From Mycteria americana (taxonomy: Eukaryota > Chordata > Aves > Ciconiiformes > Ciconiidae): a DNA stretch of 64,000 bases. Shown piece by piece: positions 5,642-61,637 of this stretch. The number at the start of each line of letters is the position of its first letter. The stretch's first letter is position 1. Below the pieces are notes generated by a model. That model made no database searches. It was not told the DNA's origin and was given only the letters and a program-made list of their open reading frames with translations. The stretch covers positions 107,246,062 to 107,310,061 of the forward strand of contig NC_134367.1 in assembly GCF_035582795.1 (NCBI RefSeq), written 5' to 3'. The position numbers were made by a program, and so were the translations under genes.

Positions 5642-6727
5642 CACAGAATCATATCGGTTGGAAAAGACCTTTAAGATCATCGAGTCCAACCGTAAACCTA
5701 ACACTACCAAGACCACCACTATACCATGTCCCTAAGCACCTCATCCAAACGTCCTTTAAATACCTCCAGGGATGGCGACTCAACCACTTCCCTGGGCAGC
5801 CTGTTCCAGTGCTTGACAACCCTTTCAGTGAAGTAAAATTTCCTAACATCCAGTCTAAACCTCCCCTGGCACAACTTGAGGCCATTTCCTGTCATCCTAT
5901 CACTTGTTACTTGGGAGGAGAGACCGACCCCCACCTCGCTACAACCTCCTTCCAAGTAGTTGTAGAGAGCCATAAGGTCTCCCTTCAGCCTCCTTTTCTC
6001 CAGGCTAAACAGCCCCAGTTCCCTCAGCCGCTCCTCACAAGCCCTGTGCTCCAGACCCTTCACCAGCTTCGTTGCCCTTCTCTGGACACGCTCCAGCACC
6101 TCAATGTCTCTCTTGTAGTGAGGGGCCCAAAACTGAACACAGTATTCAAGGTGTGGCCTCAGCAGAGCCAAGTACAAGATCACTTCCCTAGTCCTGCTGG
6201 CCATGCTATTCCTGATACAAGCCAGGATGCCATTGGCCTTCTTGGCCACCTGGGCACGCTGCCGGCTCATATTCAGGCGGCTGTCAACCAACACGCCCAG
6301 GTCCTTCTCCGCTGGGCAGCTTTCCAGCCACTTTTCCCCAAGCCTGTAGCGTTGCATGGGGTTGTTGTGCAGGACCTGGCACTTAGCCTTGTTGAACCTC
6401 ATACAGTTGGCCCCAGCCCATTGATCCAGCATGTCCAGATCCCTCTGTAGAGCCTTCCTCCCCTCAAGCAGATCAACACTCCCGCACAACTTGGTGTCTT
6501 CAGCAAACTTACTGAGGGTGCACTCGATCCCTTCGTCCAGATCATTGATAAAGATATTAAACAGAACTTGCCCCAACACAGAGCCCTGGGGAACACCGCT
6601 TGTGACCAGCTGCCAACTGGAGTAAACTCCATTCACCACCACTCTTTGGGCCCAGCCATCCAGCCAGTTCTTTACCCAGCGAAGAGTACACCCATCCAAG
6701 CCATGAACAGCCAGGTTCTCCAGGAGC
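5642..6727 (-). mobile_element. CR1 LINE copy B, 5'-truncated, inserted into copy A
   Basis: A roughly 1.1 kb 5'-truncated CR1 copy in minus orientation. It encodes the C-terminal half of the CR1 reverse transcriptase: the [10 protein letters not shown] block (RT motif region before the catalytic box), an FAEDTKL block where active copies carry the FADDTKL-type catalytic motif, the thumb-like NKAKCQVLH block, and the C-terminal [17 protein letters not shown] segment ending at a stop at 5719-5721. The 3' UTR follows down to the cacagaatcat tail. Short in-frame losses, for example in the [15 protein letters not shown] region, and the D-to-E change in the catalytic box mark it as an inactive relic. 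CR1 elements lack poly-A tails and end in short repeats, as seen here. Confidence 0.85.
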
Positions 6728-6825
6728 TTGCTCAGAGCCCCATCCAACCTGACCTTGAATGTTTCCAGGGATGGGGCATCTACCACCTCTCTGGGCAACC
6801 TGCTCCAGTGTTTCACCACCCTCAT
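5719..6825 (-). pseudogene. Chimeric CR1 reverse-transcriptase relic frame
   Basis: A 368-codon open frame that is not a single gene. Its first about 34 residues ([20 protein letters not shown] and onward) are the C-terminal end of CR1 copy A. The remainder is the RT C-terminal half of copy B, which itself ends with the equivalent [19 protein letters not shown] segment. The same protein terminus therefore occurs twice, at both ends of the frame. The join falls at the nested-insertion junction near 6725 and is in frame by chance. The catalytic box reads FAEDTKL, so no polymerase activity is expected. Confidence 0.8.
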
Positions 6826-6940
6826 TGTAAAAAATTTCTTTCTTATATCTAGTCTAAGTCTACCCTCTTTTAGTTTAAAACCATTACCCCTTGTCCTATT
6901 GCTAAAGACCGTACTAAAAAGTCTGTCCCCAAGTAAACCA
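6728..6940 (-). mobile_element. CR1 LINE copy A, remainder
   Basis: This continues copy A beyond the inserted copy B. On the plus strand it begins ttgctcagagccccatcca and runs through the ctctgggcaacctg block and the ccccttgtcctatt block that in CR1 encode the ORF2 C-terminus. It fades into unique sequence at about 6940. Together with 5553-5641 it forms one 3' end of about 300 bp, older than copy B. Confidence 0.75.
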
Positions 6941-9900
6941 ATACAATCATACCCTTAATCAATAGTCTGCTAAGATAAACTTGCAATCAGTGAAAGCCAT
7001 CCTCTACATTATGCCTAGCCCCAAAGCACAAAGCCACTAAAAAAAAAAAAACCACCCAACTGTTACACAGTTTTAATAATGACATGTAACACCATGGCAT
7101 GAATTCCACCTGTTCTCCAGCTCAAGAACCACCGCATTCCAAAATATCCTCCTGTGTCCCTGCATTTATAACCCATGCCTGCTCTCCACATTGCTGCATC
7201 CCCCAGTAAACACTTCCAGCCTTCCTATCCAAATTACTTACAGCTTCCACAAGTGTAATTCAATCTATGCTAATTTTCCAATTAATTCTGTATTCTGCTC
7301 TCCAACATTCTCACCCCAGCTGACATAAAAAGCAGGCACCCAGTTTTACACCGAGATGGCAGAACGTCTGAATGCCTAATGACCTAAGTAGTTCAATTCA
7401 CTGATGATTAAATCCTAGCAAGGTTTCCAAAGTGAATTGCATGCAGTTTCCCACCACACAAGCTAAATGTGAGACAGTGAACTTTAGTTTAGAATTAGTG
7501 AAAAACTTGCGAGTGTTTGATTTCCTTCAAGGGAAATAGATATTTTCAACAGACTCTAAAAATGCTTTGTTAGAAGTCCTATTAGTCATGCTTTACTCAG
7601 CTAAAACTTAGCCCAAATTGAGTCCGTTTGCTGGACTTCTTTCAGCTACCTACATGGCTGCTCTTCCAAAACTGCCCTGTCTTGAGCCTGCTATTTTCAA
7701 ATCTGGTTCTTCCAATACCATTCAAGTGCTGTGAACCCTTCAAAGACTGGATTGTCACCTGTGCTCAGAATTGCATTACAGCTTTTCATCCTCAACCTTG
7801 CAAACGAACACTCTTGTTCAATGAGAATATTGCCAGGACTTCTAAAAGAAAATAATGTGGAACTAAGCTGATTTTTGTACTTAAAGCCAAAACTTTACCA
7901 GTGCTTCAAAGTCCTCACATCAGGTCCAATTTATGACAACCTTGGGAGCATTTGATGTTTACATTGTTGACATGATTTTAGAAGGCAGGGCACAGAGTTT
8001 TGTGATTGCCAATTACAAGGTTGCACTGCACTCCTAGTTCACTGCAAGGGTATAACCTATAATTAAAAAAAAAAAAACCACACCCACAACCCAACAAAAA
8101 CTCTCAACAGCAGGGAAACCCTGTGGGTGATGTCTTTTGGGGTGGTCTATGGATTCTTTGGGTTGCTCGAGTCAACTGCCTGCCTGAGAGTACATTTGAG
8201 GCATATAACAGCACTCCCCTGAAACCCATGGTCTGTCAGGTCTGATCGCTTAGGCAATCTACATAATTGCATAAATTGCTTTCATTTCCTGTACACTATA
8301 TACAATTCAGATGTTGAAAGAACAGAGATTGGGCATCATTAGCCCATATACTCTATTCCTTAGTGCACACATGTCATTACATTAATTAACATTAATGTTG
8401 ATTACTTAGGGTTGCATAGTACAGTAGAGCAATTAATACTACTACAGAAGTTTGCAAAAATAGATTGTATAGAAGTCAAATTTTGCAAGTCTTAAGATAA
8501 GCAGGCAATGCGTATTCACCAATATTCCCTCTACCTGTCCAAGACAGGGCATTAGGCTTTAATTCCCTGAATTTGAGTGCCAAATACAGAACTAATTTCT
8601 GCAAATGATGCTCACTTCTAAGGAAAATAACAGAGCTACCCACAGACAGCTTCACAGATGGGTTCAATTCTGTAAGAACCTGATCCAGTTCCTTCTAGTG
8701 AAGATGAAAAGGTTGCTACTAAATTTGCACATTTATTAATAGAACAACGACATACAGCCAAATACAGGCAAAACAATAAGGTCTCCACACACAGCAAAGG
8801 AGCCTCTACAAAACCAACGGCCTGTTCCACCTGCGAGCCATGTTCTACTTGGAAGAATCGCTGCAGGATGCCCCTGATTGGAGATGGAGAGAAGAGGTCA
8901 GCTGTGACCCTGCCCAACTGTAAGACTCACTGCTGCCTGAACTTGCATTGTTTTGCTCTCCATGACGTGGAGTATGCTTTTATAGGATTTCTATGAGCAG
9001 CTGAATTCAGCACAATCTCTGGAAAAATGGTTCCCATGAAGTACAGTCAAAACAGTTATGAAAAGCCCTTTGTTTCCATTGCACCTTGAGAAAATCCACA
9101 GACTAGGAGAGAAGAAATCCCAACTTTTTTTAAAAAAGCATCCTCTCTACAAAGAGAGGTGAGTGTGGAACTCCACCAGCACCACTCAGCGGAACTGCAC
9201 TCATGAGTCTTACCAGTGTGTTGAAGTCAAAGCTTGATGGAATATTTTAGTAGTTCTTTGCAAAACAAGTAGTTTTCCACAGACACTTATCTAATGCAAG
9301 ACTGGTGTGAATAGGTGATGCAAACACTTTTTCTGTGATGAATACCCAGAAAGAGCCAATTCCATACATTTCAGTGGTTTCATGCTTTTGTCAAGCAAAC
9401 CATGAACATGACAAACTCCTTTAGTTCAGTCATGATTTCAATCCAAACTAAAATGCCACAAGATAATAACTTAGCATGTGACATCAAGGAAAGTTACAAC
9501 TGTTGTCAAAGCTTCAAACATCTCTGTTCTGAAACATTTAATATGCAATGCCTAACAGTGGAATTCTCCATTGTCTGACAAGGGTAGAACCAGTTTCACT
9601 GTGGCTTAAAACCATGTTACTCCCCTCTCTCTTTTAAATTGCTTTATAATTCCAGGGAACACGAGACTCTATAGTGACACCAAGGCACCACTCAGCCTCA
9701 GGCTGGTGTCAAGGCACTGCCTTTCTTTCCTCACCCTCCCATCGCTTTTTTCTTCTCTCTTCCTGCCCCCAACACACACTAATCTTCATCTAGAGCTTAT
9801 GTTTTGGGAATGTAAAAGAAAGATCATTGCTATGTTAGCCTCCTAATCAGACAGATTCAGTCTCTCAAGGTAAAGAGGAGACCCTCCAATGACAGAGCAC

Positions 9901-26497: not shown

Positions 26498-29400
26498 CTG
26501 GAAGACATAAGAGAAAGATATTAGAGGCTTTGGTGCACTGGCTAATTGCTAGCTTTCCCATTAAGAGCCCTATCCAAAAGCAGTAGTCTCCGAATTATCT
26601 TTTAAAAAGAGCTGTACTTAGTAAAATACGTCTACTCCCAGCTGCCTTCAGTTCAGCCTCCAGAGGACCACACGAGCAGGCCACCCTTCCTTTTGGGTTC
26701 ACCCCATCCCTCAGGCTCCCTAACGGCAATTTACCAGCCGTTCATCGAAGCAACGTTAGAGCACCTCTTCCTTGGCCAAGACCCCGCATCTTCTTGTTTC
26801 TTTAGCCCTGAGCATGGTGGAATTCCAGAAATAACCAGTGCTACCCCACAATTAACCAGTGTGAACAGCGCCAGAGAGCTGCAAAATTAACGAACCTTAA
26901 TGGAAATTTCTAAGCTGTTTTGGAAGCCTTTTGGAAGAAGCCGCTGCAGGGTTCGGAAATATTGTAATTCAGTGTTGTTTCTTTCACAAACACCCCGCAC
27001 AAAGCATTAACAGCTCAAGACCTGGTATTTTTGATGTATTGTTGGAGTACCACATTCTCAAAATGCATGCTTTAACTAATCCAGAAAGATTTGAGTCATG
27101 TTGCTAGGACACAGGCATGTGACTATTTCTCACGGTTCTTGAGAATTTAGAGCTATTATGAGTAAATAAGCCAAACATGTCATTCCAGAAATAACATATG
27201 CATCGAAATATATCATTAAAATTAATAGCATTTCAACAACAAATTTTACTTACTCAGTAGTTGCATATTAACACCTTTGGGAACCATCTGCAACAAAATA
27301 ATTGAGGTCTCCTTGATAAGCGGGAATGCAGAAGACAAGATGATGAACACCATAATTATTGTCAGGCTTGGATCGATGTAGCACTGCCAATTACATGGAG
27401 CATTCCCCAGAGGAAGTACATGGAAGATTGTAGCAGCAACTACCACGACCACAGATCCAAGTGCATCTCCCATAACATGCAAAAGAACACCTGAAACAAA
27501 TGGCACAATTTCCATTAGTGGGGGGGGGGTTTGGGGGGGAGGAGAGTAAAGCTGCATTTTTCAAGTCTGTTCTACTTGACATGAAAAACGCAATATTCCA
27601 AGCACTAACATCATAACCGAAGTTTTCAATAACAGCTTTCAGAACAAAACAGCGAGGGAAATACTGACTCTGCACCACAGCTGCTTAAGTGGGATGCATT
27701 ATTAAACATGTAGGGTATGCTAGCAACTGCGGTCCAACTGCAATGCCATGGCAACGTAAAATGTGTTTGCTTAAATGCCTGCAGATTATTAAGAGATCCT
27801 GGCACATTGAATCTCAATTCTCAATTAAAAATTGATGAATAAATCTATCCGTTCTACCCTGGAAGCTAAGAGAGCCACAGACCACCCCCAGTAACAGTTA
27901 TTCTCCTCCATCAGCTTCTATGACACTGTTGAAATCTGAAGAATTACCTATGTGAAACCTAAGCCCATTCCTATGGCTCCAAACGCCCTCAAACTCCAAT
28001 TTTTGGATCAAGCTTGATTACTAGTCATACCCACCAACACTACTAGCCCTCAGACCCCCCAAAAAATTAGGATGTGGTTTGAGAGTTAGTCACATGGATG
28101 CCACGGTTTAATACATGCCTGGTCTACTCTAAATTGAGAGGAACCCTGGGTACCACTTTTTACATCTATAGATATGTTTTTGCACAAAAGGTAAAGCCAC
28201 AAAACAGGCTCTGGTAATAACACATTTTTAGCTGCCCTTTCAACTATAATGACCAAAGTAGTCTTCTTGCTATAAAGTTACAACAAACTAAGAATTCCTT
28301 TTTTCTTCCTATTTTTTAACTGCTTTACATAATCTTCCCCCTTCCCGCCATTGCTCAAATGCACTCCAGTTTTGTCAGTCTTTACTGTTCAGACTCAGAT
28401 TTCATTCGAACCCATGCCTAATTCATAACATCTCTAAATATATGACGTTAATTTCTTTGTCAATATTTTTTATTCCGAGCCTGTGAAAAAATAAAATGGA
28501 CCATCTCCTTTTAACATCCCTACGACAAGCACTTTCAAGAACTTCACTCTGATTTAATCACTTCCTCTGGGCTGGAGAAGCTGTAAAAGGCTCCCTCTGA
28601 AACTCATTAACAACACAGGGAAGAGTTTTGACTCTTTGGTGATGCTGGCCACCGGATGAGACCTAGAGCCACGCCTGTGCTGCCGTTTCTTGCCAGCTCT
28701 TTGCACGAACATTGATCTTCAGTGTGAGAAATGAAGGCAATAACCACTGGAGTTCCTCCAAACCGCTTGGGTCAGATAAGAAAGTACGATCTTCTAGCGA
28801 GTGCAGCTCTTTCTGCTGGAGTCAGGCGTGTTCTGCCCCATTTGGCAAACTCCCACAAGGCTTTACTCCTCCTAACAGTGTTGCAGTGTTTCCTTTTCAT
28901 TTACAAATAATCCCAATTCAGCATGGGCTATCAGCTATTGCATGGACGAGAGGGACAAGCAGGATGCAATTGCCAAGGCAACTAACTAGAGAGCACAGCT
29001 TAAAAAGAACGGGAAAATGTTTCAGAAAGTCTTCTTTTGAATTCCGAAAAAAAAGTAAGCGTGTCAGAATTATGATAAATTATGACTTGAGAATATGGAA
29101 TTTGGAAAACGCTTATTTTACATAATTAACATCATTAGTATGTACATCTTGGTTACACATCACATAATGAGGGTCTAGGCAGAAATGAACCCATTTCCCT
29201 ATAGATCCCCAAAAGCTATGGTTATAAAATAGAATTGAAAATGAATTTTTAGTAAATAAAGTGAGTATGGTAAGACCATAGGTAACGCATAGTTTCCAAC
29301 AGCTTGTGTTGGAAAGTCTGAAATACTCTGCGTATGCTCAAGAAGTAAAAGGAATAATGTTACACTACAGTAATTAACCCAGTCAGGCAGAATGTCTGGA

Positions 29401-32047
29401 TTCCTGTTCCTACCACTTTTAAAAATCAAGGAAACAATTCCTCTGCCAATCCATTTTGTCCAGCCATATTTTTCAGGGAGGCTCCAATTCTATAATGTAC
29501 AGAATTTTCTGCCCAAGTGATTACGAAGAAAGTAGAGCTATGCAACTAACTTACGGCAGCAAAGAAAAAACACAGATTTTGAATCAGAATTTTAAAGACA
29601 CGTATCTGTAACACTGGCTGAAGAAGCAAGGAATATTTGCAAGGAAAATAAAAATAGATTTTGCAAAGATGACATACTAAAGTTAAAGTAGCACTTAAAG
29701 AAAAAGTCTCTTTTTAAAAATCAAAGATGACAGGTATCTTAAAATAACCAATACAAAACTCCTTATCCTTCAGACATTTTTGAAAGTTTCCAGCACCATT
29801 ACGCCTAAGTACTGTCGTTCAGGCGAGTAAGGCCTTCTCTAAAATAATACTCATTGGTTTCTTATCCTTCTCTCCTCCATCCCTGAAAGTGACGGTTTGC
29901 TGTTCCTGCTCCAATAATCTTACCACTATAACGCCATAAAATCCAGTGACACCAATTTCCAGACATTCAGGAGAGTGTTGTGGCTCTAGCACGTGGTTTG
30001 ATTTCCAAAGTGTCTTCCCTTACAGACACATTTGTGTAACTCTGAAAACACTTTTGAAAGACAGGTAGACAGACACACACCAAAAAAACCCCAGGCGCCT
30101 GACTGCCATGTCGACCTCTTTAAGCTGAATTCACGTGATGCCAACTTACACGACTTTGGAGGACTATCAGATACTGATAGGTGACCATAAGAAGCCTGAA
30201 ACTACCATCCTGTTTCAGCTTTCGACAGCCCTTTCCTTGAGGGACAAACTCAATATTTAATATACTCTAAGATACCTGCTTTTGGCTCTGCTCAGAACAG
30301 GTATGTAAACGTGTATGCATATAAACAACTATACAGAGAGGAGAGAGACACCTGGTTAATTTATTCCTAGAAGTAGCTATATAGTTTCACTCTGCAGATA
30401 CCCAGAGACCTGCCAAATTACAACATAAGCCGGGTTGATACTGTCACAGATTCTCTCAGGGACAAGGTTCACGGTTCAAGGACCTGGAAAAACACTGCTG
30501 AAGCATCAGTTTCAGCACTTTTTTCCTCGTGCCGATTACAACACATTGTCAGCCTCAAGATTTAAAGAAATGCTGGTTTCTGCCCAAAAGCATTTTGAAG
30601 TTGAAAACTGCTCAATTACTACCGCAGTGACACTCGAAGAAGCGCCTCACAGGTACCGGCTTTACCTTCCTATAAGCCCTCTAGCAACTTGAGCTTAGTG
30701 CAAGAGGCTTTGCTTTCCAAAAAGTTCAGCTGCACTCTTCTAAAGAATTAAAATCAAAATGTAAAGACACTTGGAGCCAAATCAGCATCACGCTATTTTG
30801 TTATTATCTGTGCTATTTCATACAACCAAAACCTTTCTGCTAACGATAACGGGGTCCCTACACATAGAACAGTCCTGGGCTTTTTCTCCATTTCTTACTG
30901 ACATTTGGAAAAAGAAAAAAATCTGAAATGGAAACCAAAGTGTTTAAAGTTAACACAGTATTAGCAGTATACTCCCGTGCTGTACCTCTGATGTTCAAGG
31001 CTTCAGACTTTCTCTCTTTTTTCTTCTCAGGCCCCTCTTCAGGGCTTTTTTGGTCATTTGGTGAATCACCTGCATTCAAAGAAGAAACGCTGTGTTGTGT
31101 ATAAGTTCTACAAACAGAAAAAACATCATCCTTCTCAAGACCAACTTATTTCAAAGGTGACAAGAAGAAAAAAAGAACAAGCCAAAACATTTTCCATGCA
31201 GCCCTCTGAGCAACGCCTCCCTCCCTCCCGCATCCCGAGGGGATGCCCAGCAGCCCGGCCTGAAGCACAAGGTGAAAGAGGCGGCGGGCGTCCGAGCGAG
31301 CTCAGGGACACCCGCGGGGCCCGGGGGGGGCCGGGGCTCGGAAAGGGCGCGGGGGATGGCTCTGGCAGCTCGGCGGGTCCCGAGGGCAAAGGGAGGGAGG
31401 GAGAGAGGGGACGAGGAGGGACGGGGAAGGGTGCGAGGGGTGGGGAGCGGTGCGGGACGCGAGGGGCAGGCTGGCGGGCGAGGCGAGGCGAGGCGAGGCG
31501 AGGCGGGGCGGCGAGGATGCAGCCGAAAGGCACCTGCTCCATCCGCCTCCCCCGGCGGGGCGCCGGCGGGCGCGGCCCGCAGCGCGGCGGCAGCAGGTGG
31601 CGGGGCGGGCGGGCGGCGGCGGCGGCAGCAGGAGCCCCAGTCCTGGAAGACGAGGAGCCCCAGGAGATTGACGGCGAGGCCGAGGGTGCCGACGATGAGC
31701 ACCAGCTGGGCGTCGTCGATGGGCTCGGGCCGGGCGAGGCGCAGGATGGCCTCCACGAAGATGGTGAAGCAGAGGGCGGTGAGGAAGACGGCGTTGCCCA
31801 GGGCCCCCACCACCTCGGCGCGGCCGTAGCCGTAGGTGGCGCGGGGGCCCCGGCGGCTGCGGCGGGCGATGCGCCCCGTGGAGAGGCCCACGCAGAGGGA
31901 GATGAGGTCCGAGAGCATGTTGAAGGAGTCGGACACCAGCGCGATGGAGTTGCCCAGGTAGCCCGACACCAGCTCGGCCACGAAGAAGCCGACGGTGAGC
32001 ACCAGCATGAAGATGAGGCGGCACGTCTTCCCCGAGTACCGCCCCAT
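26022..32047 (-). CDS. SLC30A10: SLC30A10, zinc/manganese transporter 10 (four coding exons)
   Basis: A cation-diffusion-facilitator (ZnT) family member. In mammals SLC30A10 exports manganese across the plasma membrane and its loss causes manganese overload. The exons, all minus strand, are 32047-31534, 31069-30986, 27490-27254 and 26497-26022. All junctions are AG/GT and every join is phase 1, giving 1311 nt, or 436 residues (human about 485; the difference is mainly a shorter cytosolic loop). The start MGRYSGKTCRL matches the mammalian N-terminus, has a GCCGCCATGG context, and is the first in-frame ATG. Six membrane segments are visible. TM2 carries N43 and D47 and TM5 carries H204 and D208 (the HVMGD motif), forming the family's metal site. 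E25 and N127, which I recall as important for Mn transport in human SLC30A10, are both present. The C-terminal cytosolic domain begins with HEVHVWEL and ends with a Cys-rich segment (CSSPCISKAC, QLCC). Synteny with EPRS1 supports the name over SLC30A1. Confidence 0.95.
26498..27253 (-). other. SLC30A10: SLC30A10 intron 3
   Basis: 756 bp, unique sequence with canonical GTAAGT donor and TTCCAG acceptor. I see no other feature in it. Confidence 0.8.
27254..27490 (-). CDS. SLC30A10: SLC30A10 coding exon 3 (TM5-TM6)
   Basis: 237 nt in phase 1/1. It encodes TM5 with the metal-site motif HVMGD inside LLHVMGDALGSVVVV, an extracellular loop with DPSLT, and TM6 ending PLIKET, then LLQMVPKGVNM leading into the cytosolic domain. 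The acceptor is TTTCAG|GTG and the donor CTGA|GTAAGT. Joined to exon 4 it reads MQLLTDRLAHVPG, aligning without gaps to the mammalian MEELMSKLSAVPG region. Confidence 0.93.
27491..30985 (-). other. SLC30A10: SLC30A10 intron 2
   Basis: About 3.5 kb of unique, AT-rich sequence. No repeat family, RNA gene or additional exon was recognised. Close to the exon 3 acceptor it contains long C runs on the minus strand (G runs at 27520-27529 and 27533-27539 on the plus strand) next to an ACTAAT branch-point-like motif. Confidence 0.7.
30986..31069 (-). CDS. SLC30A10: SLC30A10 coding exon 2 (cytosolic loop)
   Basis: 84 nt, 28 codons in phase 1/1. It encodes the charged cytosolic loop between TM4 and TM5, beginning GDSPNDQKSPEEG and ending KKKERKSEALNIRG. 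The segment KSEALNIRG immediately before TM5 is shared with mammalian SLC30A10. The acceptor is AATGCAG|G and the donor AGAG|GTACAG. The loop has none of the histidine-rich repeats typical of many ZnTs, as expected for SLC30A10. Confidence 0.92.
31070..31533 (-). other. SLC30A10: SLC30A10 intron 1 (short, GC-rich)
   Basis: 464 bp. The exon 1 side is CpG-island sequence with G/A-rich runs. The exon 2 side is AT-rich and ends in ..TTTGAATGCAG. Open frames crossing it on both strands are compositional. Confidence 0.85.
31480..31510. repeat. GGCGA pentanucleotide repeat
   Basis: About five tandem GGCGA units in SLC30A10 intron 1, some 25 bp inside the intron from the exon 1 donor. The surrounding 31200-31530 is strongly purine-rich on the plus strand. 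Confidence 0.9.
31534..32047 (-). CDS. SLC30A10: SLC30A10 coding exon 1 (TM1-TM4)
   Basis: 514 nt encoding residues 1-171 plus one base. It holds TM1 (about 11-31), TM2 (about 36-56), TM3 (about 79-100) and TM4 (about 115-134), followed by a short Arg/Pro/Ala-rich cytosolic stretch (starting SCCRRRRPPAPPP) in place of the longer mammalian loop. The donor is CAG|GTGCCT, a little weak, but its phase matches exon 2 and the joined AGDS matches mammalian SLC30A10. The exon is very GC-rich. A long open frame on the opposite strand is an artefact of that composition. Confidence 0.93.
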
Positions 32048-32250
32048 GGCGGCGACGGCAGCGGCGGCGGCCGGGCCCACCGGCGCCCCTCTCCGCGCTA
32101 GCGCCGGGCCATGCCCCGCCGCCCGCCAGCCAGCGCCGCCGGCCCGCAACAAGTGCGGCCGCCCCGGCCCCTCGCTCCGCCGCCCGCCGCGCCAGGCCCC
32201 GCCCGCCGCCCTGCCCCGCGGGGAAGGCGCCGGCCGCCCGCTCCGCCCCG

Positions 32251-32376
32251 CCCCGCTCCGCCCCACCGGTACCGGCACCGCCGCCGCCCCGCTCCGCCCC
32301 ACCGGTACCGGCACCGCCACCGCCTCCGCCCCGCTCCGCCCCACTGGTACCGGCACCGCCACCGGCACCGCCACCG
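32251..32376. repeat. GC-rich minisatellite in SLC30A10 5' flank
   Basis: Three imperfect direct copies (32251-32286, 32287-32328, 32329-32376). Each opens ccccgctccgccccac and contains ggtaccggcaccgcc; the first two carry a CCGGTACCGG palindrome and the third has CTGGTACCGG. Copy length grows from 36 to 48 bp by addition of accgcc-type steps. The array lies 200-330 bp upstream of the SLC30A10 ATG. Confidence 0.9.
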
Positions 32377-32487
32377 CGCCCCCTGCCCGCGTCCCCGGCT
32401 GCAGGGCTGCGGGGAACCCCCGCTGCCCGCCCCGCCGCTGCGCGGCCCCCGCGGCTCACGGGACGTTAGAAACGGCGGTGGCTTATA

Positions 32488-44089: not shown

Positions 44090-44534
44090 CTGTTTCGACG
44101 TCTCCTTGGGGTGCACGACAATAACAGCAGTCCATGAAGATAACGTAGTTGAACACATTGAAGAACAGACCTGCAATCCCAACAATGAGGACGAGCAGGG
44201 CTTTCTCAGTCTTCTGAGGATTGATAAACCTCTTGATTGCCTCAACAAAAATGCTAAACATCAGAGCGGTGGCAAAAACAGAGTTGCCAAAAGCTCCCAG
44301 CACATCTGCCCGGCTGAAGCCGAAAGTGTTAGCCTTGTGCCATCTGATGCGACTGAACCTAACACCGAACAAACCGATGATCATGGAGATCAAGTGAGAG
44401 AAAACAGCAAAGGCATCTGAAGCTAAGGAAAGAGAATTGCCAACGTAGGCCACCGAGATCTCAACGGCAAAAAGCACGAGGCTCACCACGCACATGAGGA
44501 TGAGCCTGCTGCTCCTGCCCGAGTAGCGGCCCAT
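44090..44534 (-). CDS. SLC30A10-like first exon (alternative exon 1 or partial paralogue)
   Basis: 445 nt encoding 148 residues plus one base, starting MGRYSGRSSRLILM and ending before a GTAAAT donor after GDVETG. Hand alignment to SLC30A10 exon 1 gives 25 identities in the first 50 residues and a conserved four-helix layout, with NSLSLASD, SRADVLGAFGNSVF and LLVLIVGIAG matching the parental blocks. The ATG is the first in frame and sits about 90 nt below the expected start of a TATA promoter. The donor phase (1) equals that of SLC30A10 exon 1, so it could join SLC30A10 exon 2 to give a 413-residue protein. At TM2 the family metal residues N43 and D47 are replaced by A43 and H47, while D40, E25 and the TM4 Asn are kept. 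No own exons 2-4 were found in the 11.5 kb downstream. The intact frame and retained promoter argue against a dead fragment. Confidence 0.75.
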
Positions 44535-44650: not shown

Positions 44651-44658
44651 CTTTTATA
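44651..44658 (-). promoter_or_regulatory. TATA box of the SLC30A10-like exon
   Basis: TATAAAAG on the minus strand, about 117 bp above the ATG at 44534. This predicts a start near 44620-44630 and a short leader of about 90 nt with no upstream ATG. There is no CpG island here, in contrast to SLC30A10 exon 1, suggesting a tissue-restricted promoter. Confidence 0.6.

Positions 44659-49596: not shown

Positions 49597-61637
<12,041 letters not shown>

Follow-up and report, generated by a model that had tools for sequence, protein, structure and literature searches.

We analyzed a 64-kb stretch of the Mycteria americana genome (NC_134367.1, positions 107,246,062 to 107,310,061; hereafter the window), which carries on its minus strand the gene SLC30A10, encoding the calcium/manganese antiporter ZnT10, together with a second version of its first coding exon. 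The standard first coding exon, E1, lies 12,042 bases downstream of this second version, E1′, and the window holds exons 2, 3, and 4 of the gene farther downstream (Table 1). E1′ is intact: it is open over 148 codons plus one base, starts with MGRYSG as SLC30A10 does, and ends at a phase-1 donor (ACAG/GTAAAT). Its alignment with SLC30A10 exon 1 runs end to end, up to the fourth transmembrane helix (TM4), with 47% identity across 146 columns (125 bits and E = 1e-36 in tblastn), and a Pfam match (2.8e-20) covers the opening part of the Cation_efflux domain. Among chains of known structure, human SLC30A10 is the nearest (113 bits), followed by SLC30A1 (≈91 bits). The encoded residues are the same at all 148 positions in the ZNT10 model P0002 of Ciconia maguari and at 89% of positions in chicken. 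An initial annotation of this DNA had described an intact 148-codon homologue of exon 1, 12 kb upstream on the same strand and ending in a phase-1 GTAAAT donor, and its coordinates, phase, and distance are right. No third copy of exon 1 was found in the window. From these and the following observations, SLC30A10 is very likely a gene that has, and uses, two alternative coding first exons.

Table 1. Exons of SLC30A10 and a candidate promoter element in the 64-kb window
Feature	Positions	Strand	Basis
Candidate TATA box of E1′, TATAAAAG	44651..44658	−	Read in the sequence; 117–124 bases upstream of the ATG
E1′, alternative first coding exon, TM1–TM4, phase-1 donor	44090..44534	−	Open frame, donor, exon-1 homology, Pfam, identity with P0002
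E1, standard SLC30A10 first coding exon, TM1–TM4, phase-1 donor	31534..32047	−	Homology, splice scan; surrounding GC 74–81%
Exon 2, shared, phase-1 acceptor	30986..31069	−	tblastn, GT-AG scan
Exon 3, shared, TM5–TM6, motif HVMGDALGS (H244, D248, S252)	27254..27490	−	tblastn, GT-AG scan
Exon 4, shared, cytosolic domain and stop codon	26022..26497	−	tblastn, GT-AG scan; ZT_dimer in the joined product P0002

To examine splice compatibility, we tried every pairing of GT and AG sites around the exon boundaries. E1′ joined to exons 2, 3, and 4 yields a stop-free protein of 413 residues, and E1 joined to the same exons yields a stop-free protein of 436 residues; an alternative join of exons 3 and 4, one residue shorter, is likewise open, and public models use the first. 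The 413-residue product differs from P0002 at four positions, none of them in E1′. The phase-1 acceptor that the initial annotation had assigned to exon 2 accommodates both first exons, and its further remark that no separate exons 2 to 4 were found in between holds for the entire window: tblastn with exons 2, 3, and 4 (E limit of 100, with 30 matches kept for each exon) detects no second copy of any of them, the next-best matches after the known copies having E values of 1.1, 0.55, and 0.33, respectively. Exons of a separate paralogue hidden in the window were sought in the same way, and this candidate was rejected, as only the known copies were returned. The window holds two compatible donors and a single set of downstream exons, the arrangement expected of mutually exclusive first exons.

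The same arrangement is already present in public annotation, as predicted models. Protein searches, from which the best 120 of 263, 722, and 249 matches were taken, gave 267 proteins, which we typed by their first 160 residues into 148 E1′-type and 119 E1-type sequences. The E1′-E2–E4 join occurs among the matches listed in birds, turtles, squamates, amphibians, two marsupials, and pika. The E1′-type rows comprise 119 from birds, one (P0117) discussed below, and 28 others (12 amphibian, 10 squamate, 2 turtle, and 4 mammal), the mammals being two marsupials, pika, and tree shrew, the last a chimeric model. The initial annotation had called the arrangement unfamiliar from mammals; that remark gives way to the marsupial, pika, and chimeric tree-shrew models, and E1′ extends beyond birds. 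Fish, human, and mouse have no E1′ row among the matches listed (best 120 of 263, 722, and 249). By name, 25 of the 148 E1′ rows are “isoform X2,” two are “isoform 2-T2,” and most of the bird rows are “ZNT10 protein, partial.” P0117 encodes E1′ and exons 2, 3, and 4 uninterrupted by introns on a contig of 2,839 bases, the equivalent of which occupies 18.5 kb in the window; because these exons are encoded without introns, P0117 looks like spliced RNA, and on our reading of its source, labeled “lgn,” we take it to be an assembled transcript, a retrocopy being possible.

Shared downstream exons predict that the two types of protein from one species will have identical C-terminal halves, and an all-against-all comparison of the 148 E1′ with the 119 E1 proteins shows this in most species with both types. 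Eight species have separate models of both types, and seven of these (Gallus, Struthio, Guaruba, Oenanthe, Petaurus, Ochotona, and Caloenas) share identical C-terminal runs of 262 to 269 residues; in Oenanthe, the E1′ protein stands for a cluster whose lead sequence comes from a congeneric species. In six of the seven, identity begins with the glycine at the junction; in Guaruba it reaches two residues farther upstream, because the residues that precede the junction match there. Two species of Aegotheles have a run of 265 residues in common. The eighth species, Eudromia, lacks an identical run; its E1′ model is faulty, reading past the donor and omitting exon 2, and its exons 3 and 4 agree with those of the E1 model except at two residues. 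The core proposal of the initial annotation, one locus with two first exons and shared exons 2 to 4, is supported by these identical halves, by the public models, and by P0117.

Two further features of the collected models concern the shared exons. Directly before the exon 2 acceptor, at 31070–31105 (minus strand), the intron reads in frame as YTQHSVSSLNA, and YTQHSVSSL is read through in 23 of the 267 models (22 bird and one frog, P0244). Conservation of this end of the intron seems unusually high, and the stretch may govern use of the shared acceptor. Separately, in the E1-type bird models P0131, P0153, and P0194, exon 2 runs directly into exon 4, and P0122 is without exons 2 and 3; these represent a possible exon-3-skipping form devoid of TM5–TM6, or model errors.

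To place E1′ in evolutionary context, we built a tree of the exon-1 region from 34 rows chosen from the 267 proteins and the human chains. E1′ sequences form one clade (support 92/99; 94% of 200 bootstrap trees) that contains amphibians and amniotes, and within which amniotes (98/96) and mammals (100/97) are each grouped; amphibians do not form one group, the newt lying next to the amniotes (85/80). E1 sequences likewise form one clade (86/68; 84% of bootstrap trees). Since amphibians and amniotes both have E1′, its origin lies before crown tetrapods. Human ZnT1 has no firm place in the tree: the two outgroup rows join in 46% of bootstrap trees, and long branches are flagged. An origin of E1′ from SLC30A1 rather than from SLC30A10 was considered, and the tree does not decide between the two. 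Mean pairwise identity over 36 pairs from nine species, with the turtle row pairing two species, is 76% for E1′, 88% for E1, and 69% for the last 255 residues; E1′ is therefore clearly constrained, though less so than E1. In the E1′ tree the pika sequence (P0267), which has Q47, sits on a long branch, and E1′ may be under relaxed constraint, or fading, in some placental mammals.

We next consider the metal-site residues, in human SLC30A10 numbering. In excerpts of a 2026 review, the Mn2+ site observed by cryo-electron microscopy in SLC30A10 consists of D40, N127, D248, and S252, and manganese export requires E25, D40, N127, and D248; results on N43 conflict across studies, one proposed role being calcium coupling (PMC13272668). 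In SLC30A1, residue 43 determines preference for zinc or manganese, according to excerpts of a second source (PMC11633486). E25, D40, and N127, all encoded by the first exon, are retained in each of the 148 E1′ and 119 E1 proteins. Position 43 is Asn in 118 of the 119 E1 proteins and Ser in the other, whereas in the E1′ proteins it is Ala (136), Thr (10), Ser (1), or Gly (1); position 47 is Asp in every E1 protein and His in 147 E1′ proteins, with Gln in one. The canonical CDF pair in TM2 (H, N, or D at 43 with D47) is absent from the E1′ proteins. In shared exon 3, D248 and S252 are present in all 258 proteins that have this exon (the remaining nine of 267 lack it), and H244 in 257 of them, a caecilian sequence (P0248) having Leu. 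H244 and D248 make up the TM5 half of the canonical site, which the two forms have in common. As judged by sequence alone, E1′ proteins possess the complete SLC30A10-type manganese site (D40, N127, D248, and S252, with E25), and the two TM2 positions of the canonical zinc-type site are both changed.

The E1′ product also has the domains of a CDF/SLC30 transporter, with PF01545 at residues 11 to 243 (5e-32) and PF16916 (8e-7) in P0002. The loop between TM4 and TM5 is shorter in the E1′ form, with the TM5 histidine at position 181 versus 196 in Gallus and 182 versus 240 in Petaurus. An AlphaFold model of P0002, made with 36 E1′ sequences, has a mean predicted local distance difference test (pLDDT) score of 55.4 and a predicted template modeling (pTM) score of 0.41, too weak for site geometry; six long helices follow one another as expected, with a cytosolic fold, and the model, which adds little to the sequence, was used for helix order alone. 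In the PDB it is closest to human SLC30A10 (9kvy and 9kvx), with a TM-score of 0.44 to 0.45 (query length) and a root-mean-square deviation of 12.7. From the residue patterns, we infer that the E1′ product is a second, manganese-capable transporter with a remodeled zinc-type site.

Sequence upstream of the two exons suggests how the choice between them could be made. A separate promoter of TATA type probably serves E1′: a candidate box precedes it (Table 1), and the 95 bases from the expected transcription start (≈44629, as inferred) to the coding ATG contain no other ATG. The box by itself is weak evidence, as TATAAAAR occurs 11 times in the window against 9.4 expected, and scanning for promoters of bacterial type gives no useful information in this DNA. 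Just upstream of GC-rich E1 lies a GC-rich tandem repeat (32195–32377; periods of 36 to 78) that is likely part of the E1 promoter or 5′ leader. In the simplest model there are two promoters, and transcripts that start at the upstream one would join E1′ directly to exon 2, passing over E1. The two exons would be mutually exclusive because each has its own start codon and E1, presumably as a first exon, normally lacks an acceptor. Either E1′ or E1 would then supply TM1–TM4, and common exons 2 to 4 would supply TM5–TM6 and the cytosolic domain. The E1′ product is predicted to be a full-length CDF transporter that handles Mn2+ through E25, D40, and N127 from E1′ and D248 and S252 from exon 3, and may serve as a second exporter differing from the first in selectivity, ion coupling, location, or tissue use. 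It could also associate with the standard form; mixed dimers are plausible because the isoforms have the dimer domain in common.

We regard it as an evenly balanced question whether the E1′ form is an active manganese exporter with altered selectivity or coupling. The fuller proposal, in which one gene makes two transporters and the E1′ form, older than crown tetrapods, is a separately regulated manganese exporter that is able to pair with the standard form and may be fading in some placental mammals, commands about as much belief as doubt. Several observations weigh against the reading of two alternative first exons or against the function inferred from it. Studies that hold N43 essential would predict that E1′ has lost manganese transport, and the altered TM2 pair could more generally signal lost activity. 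Bird E1′ rows are mostly “partial” models in one annotation style and are not independent of one another, since all may follow one annotation scheme. Chimeric or faulty models occur among those collected (P0001, P0265, P0026, P0097, P0109, and P0266): in the frog model P0001 and the tree-shrew model P0265, E1′ continues into parts of E1, and P0026, P0097, and P0266 contain other odd joins. Finally, P0117 could be a retrocopy, and its source is mixed, other “lgn” rows of E1 type extending into an intron and looking genomic.

The alternative that survives best accepts that the E1′ form is made and holds that it is mainly a nontransporting or weakly transporting partner that pairs with the standard form by way of their common cytosolic domain and tunes it, much as ZnT6 does with ZnT5. 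Alteration of both N43 and D47 in all 148 E1′ proteins and the common dimer domain fit this idea, but E25, D40, N127, D248, and S252, the residues tied to manganese export, are kept and would be superfluous in a dead subunit; we consider it possible, and clearly less probable than an exporting E1′ form. It is improbable that the joined models are annotation artefacts, produced by gene finders that attached a conserved exon to SLC30A10 and then propagated by homology. The prevalence of “ZNT10 protein, partial” among bird rows, the use of the “isoform X2” label in just 25 of the 148 rows, and the faulty models just listed would suit such an origin; against it stand the isoform X1/X2 or T1/T2 pairs in several species and the short intronless contig of P0117, and it is weakened because a coding exon conserved between frogs and birds needs some partner sequence with which to be translated. 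Still less credible is a separate tandem paralogue whose own exons 2 to 4 lie beyond the window, in a gap, or have been lost. Identity of just 47% between E1′ and E1 does imply an old duplication, a whole-gene tandem duplication could have been its origin, and the exon search covered 64 kb; however, the window has no other exons 2 to 4, and E1′ models of distant species end in the C-terminal half of their own species' E1 model. A tandem paralogue that lost exons 2 to 4 is a possible evolutionary source of E1′. Least likely of all is an unused, decaying exon in M. americana: the long branch and Q47 of pika, in another lineage, indicate that constraint may fade in places, but here the frame is open, the splice and start sites are good, and the encoded residues match Ciconia maguari throughout and chicken at 89%.

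Elsewhere in the window, an anticodon-binding domain (HGTP_anticodon) encoded at 57099–57395 on the minus strand is probably the end of EPRS1, a gene that neighbors SLC30A10 in human. A 411-residue reverse transcriptase frame (RVT_1) at 5719–6954, also on the minus strand, probably belongs to a CR1-type long interspersed nuclear element.

Loss of SLC30A10 leads to hereditary manganese excess, and if two first exons are used, expression data on this gene from chicken, frogs, and marsupials may mix two different transporters. No description of a second first exon of SLC30A10 was found among the papers listed in searches of an open-access library; two hen shell-gland studies mention the gene, and the excerpts of them do not mention isoforms. 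Which residues set the metal choice of SLC30A10 is disputed, according to the review excerpts, with N43 results differing between studies (PMC13272668). E1′ represents an old natural experiment in which the proposed manganese site was kept and the zinc-type pair discarded in the same background, and the selectivity question is therefore testable by exon swap.

The closest known system is the standard SLC30A10 isoform, with which the E1′ form has identical exons 2 to 4 and the residues E25, D40, and N127 in common, and from which it differs at about half of the E1′ residues, including N43 and D47, and in its shorter TM4–TM5 loop. SLC30A1 (ZnT1), the second-nearest relative of known structure, differs in being a separate gene and a zinc exporter with H43 and D47 in TM2. 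SLC39A14 (ZIP14) resembles the present case as a metal transporter gene with two isoforms and differs in encoding an importer of another family; its A and B forms arise by choice of an internal exon, not from a new first exon. These two forms are reported to differ in manganese transport, according to excerpts of a review. The organization proposed here for SLC30A10 is that of a known gene type, in which alternative first exons share downstream exons. At UGT1A-type loci, several alternative first exons encode the variable half of the protein and common downstream exons the constant half. SLC30A10 differs in having two first exons, in that the exchanged half is TM1–TM4 of a metal transporter, and in that the metal site is split between the halves; swapping half of the membrane domain of a metal transporter in this way appears, to us, to be new.
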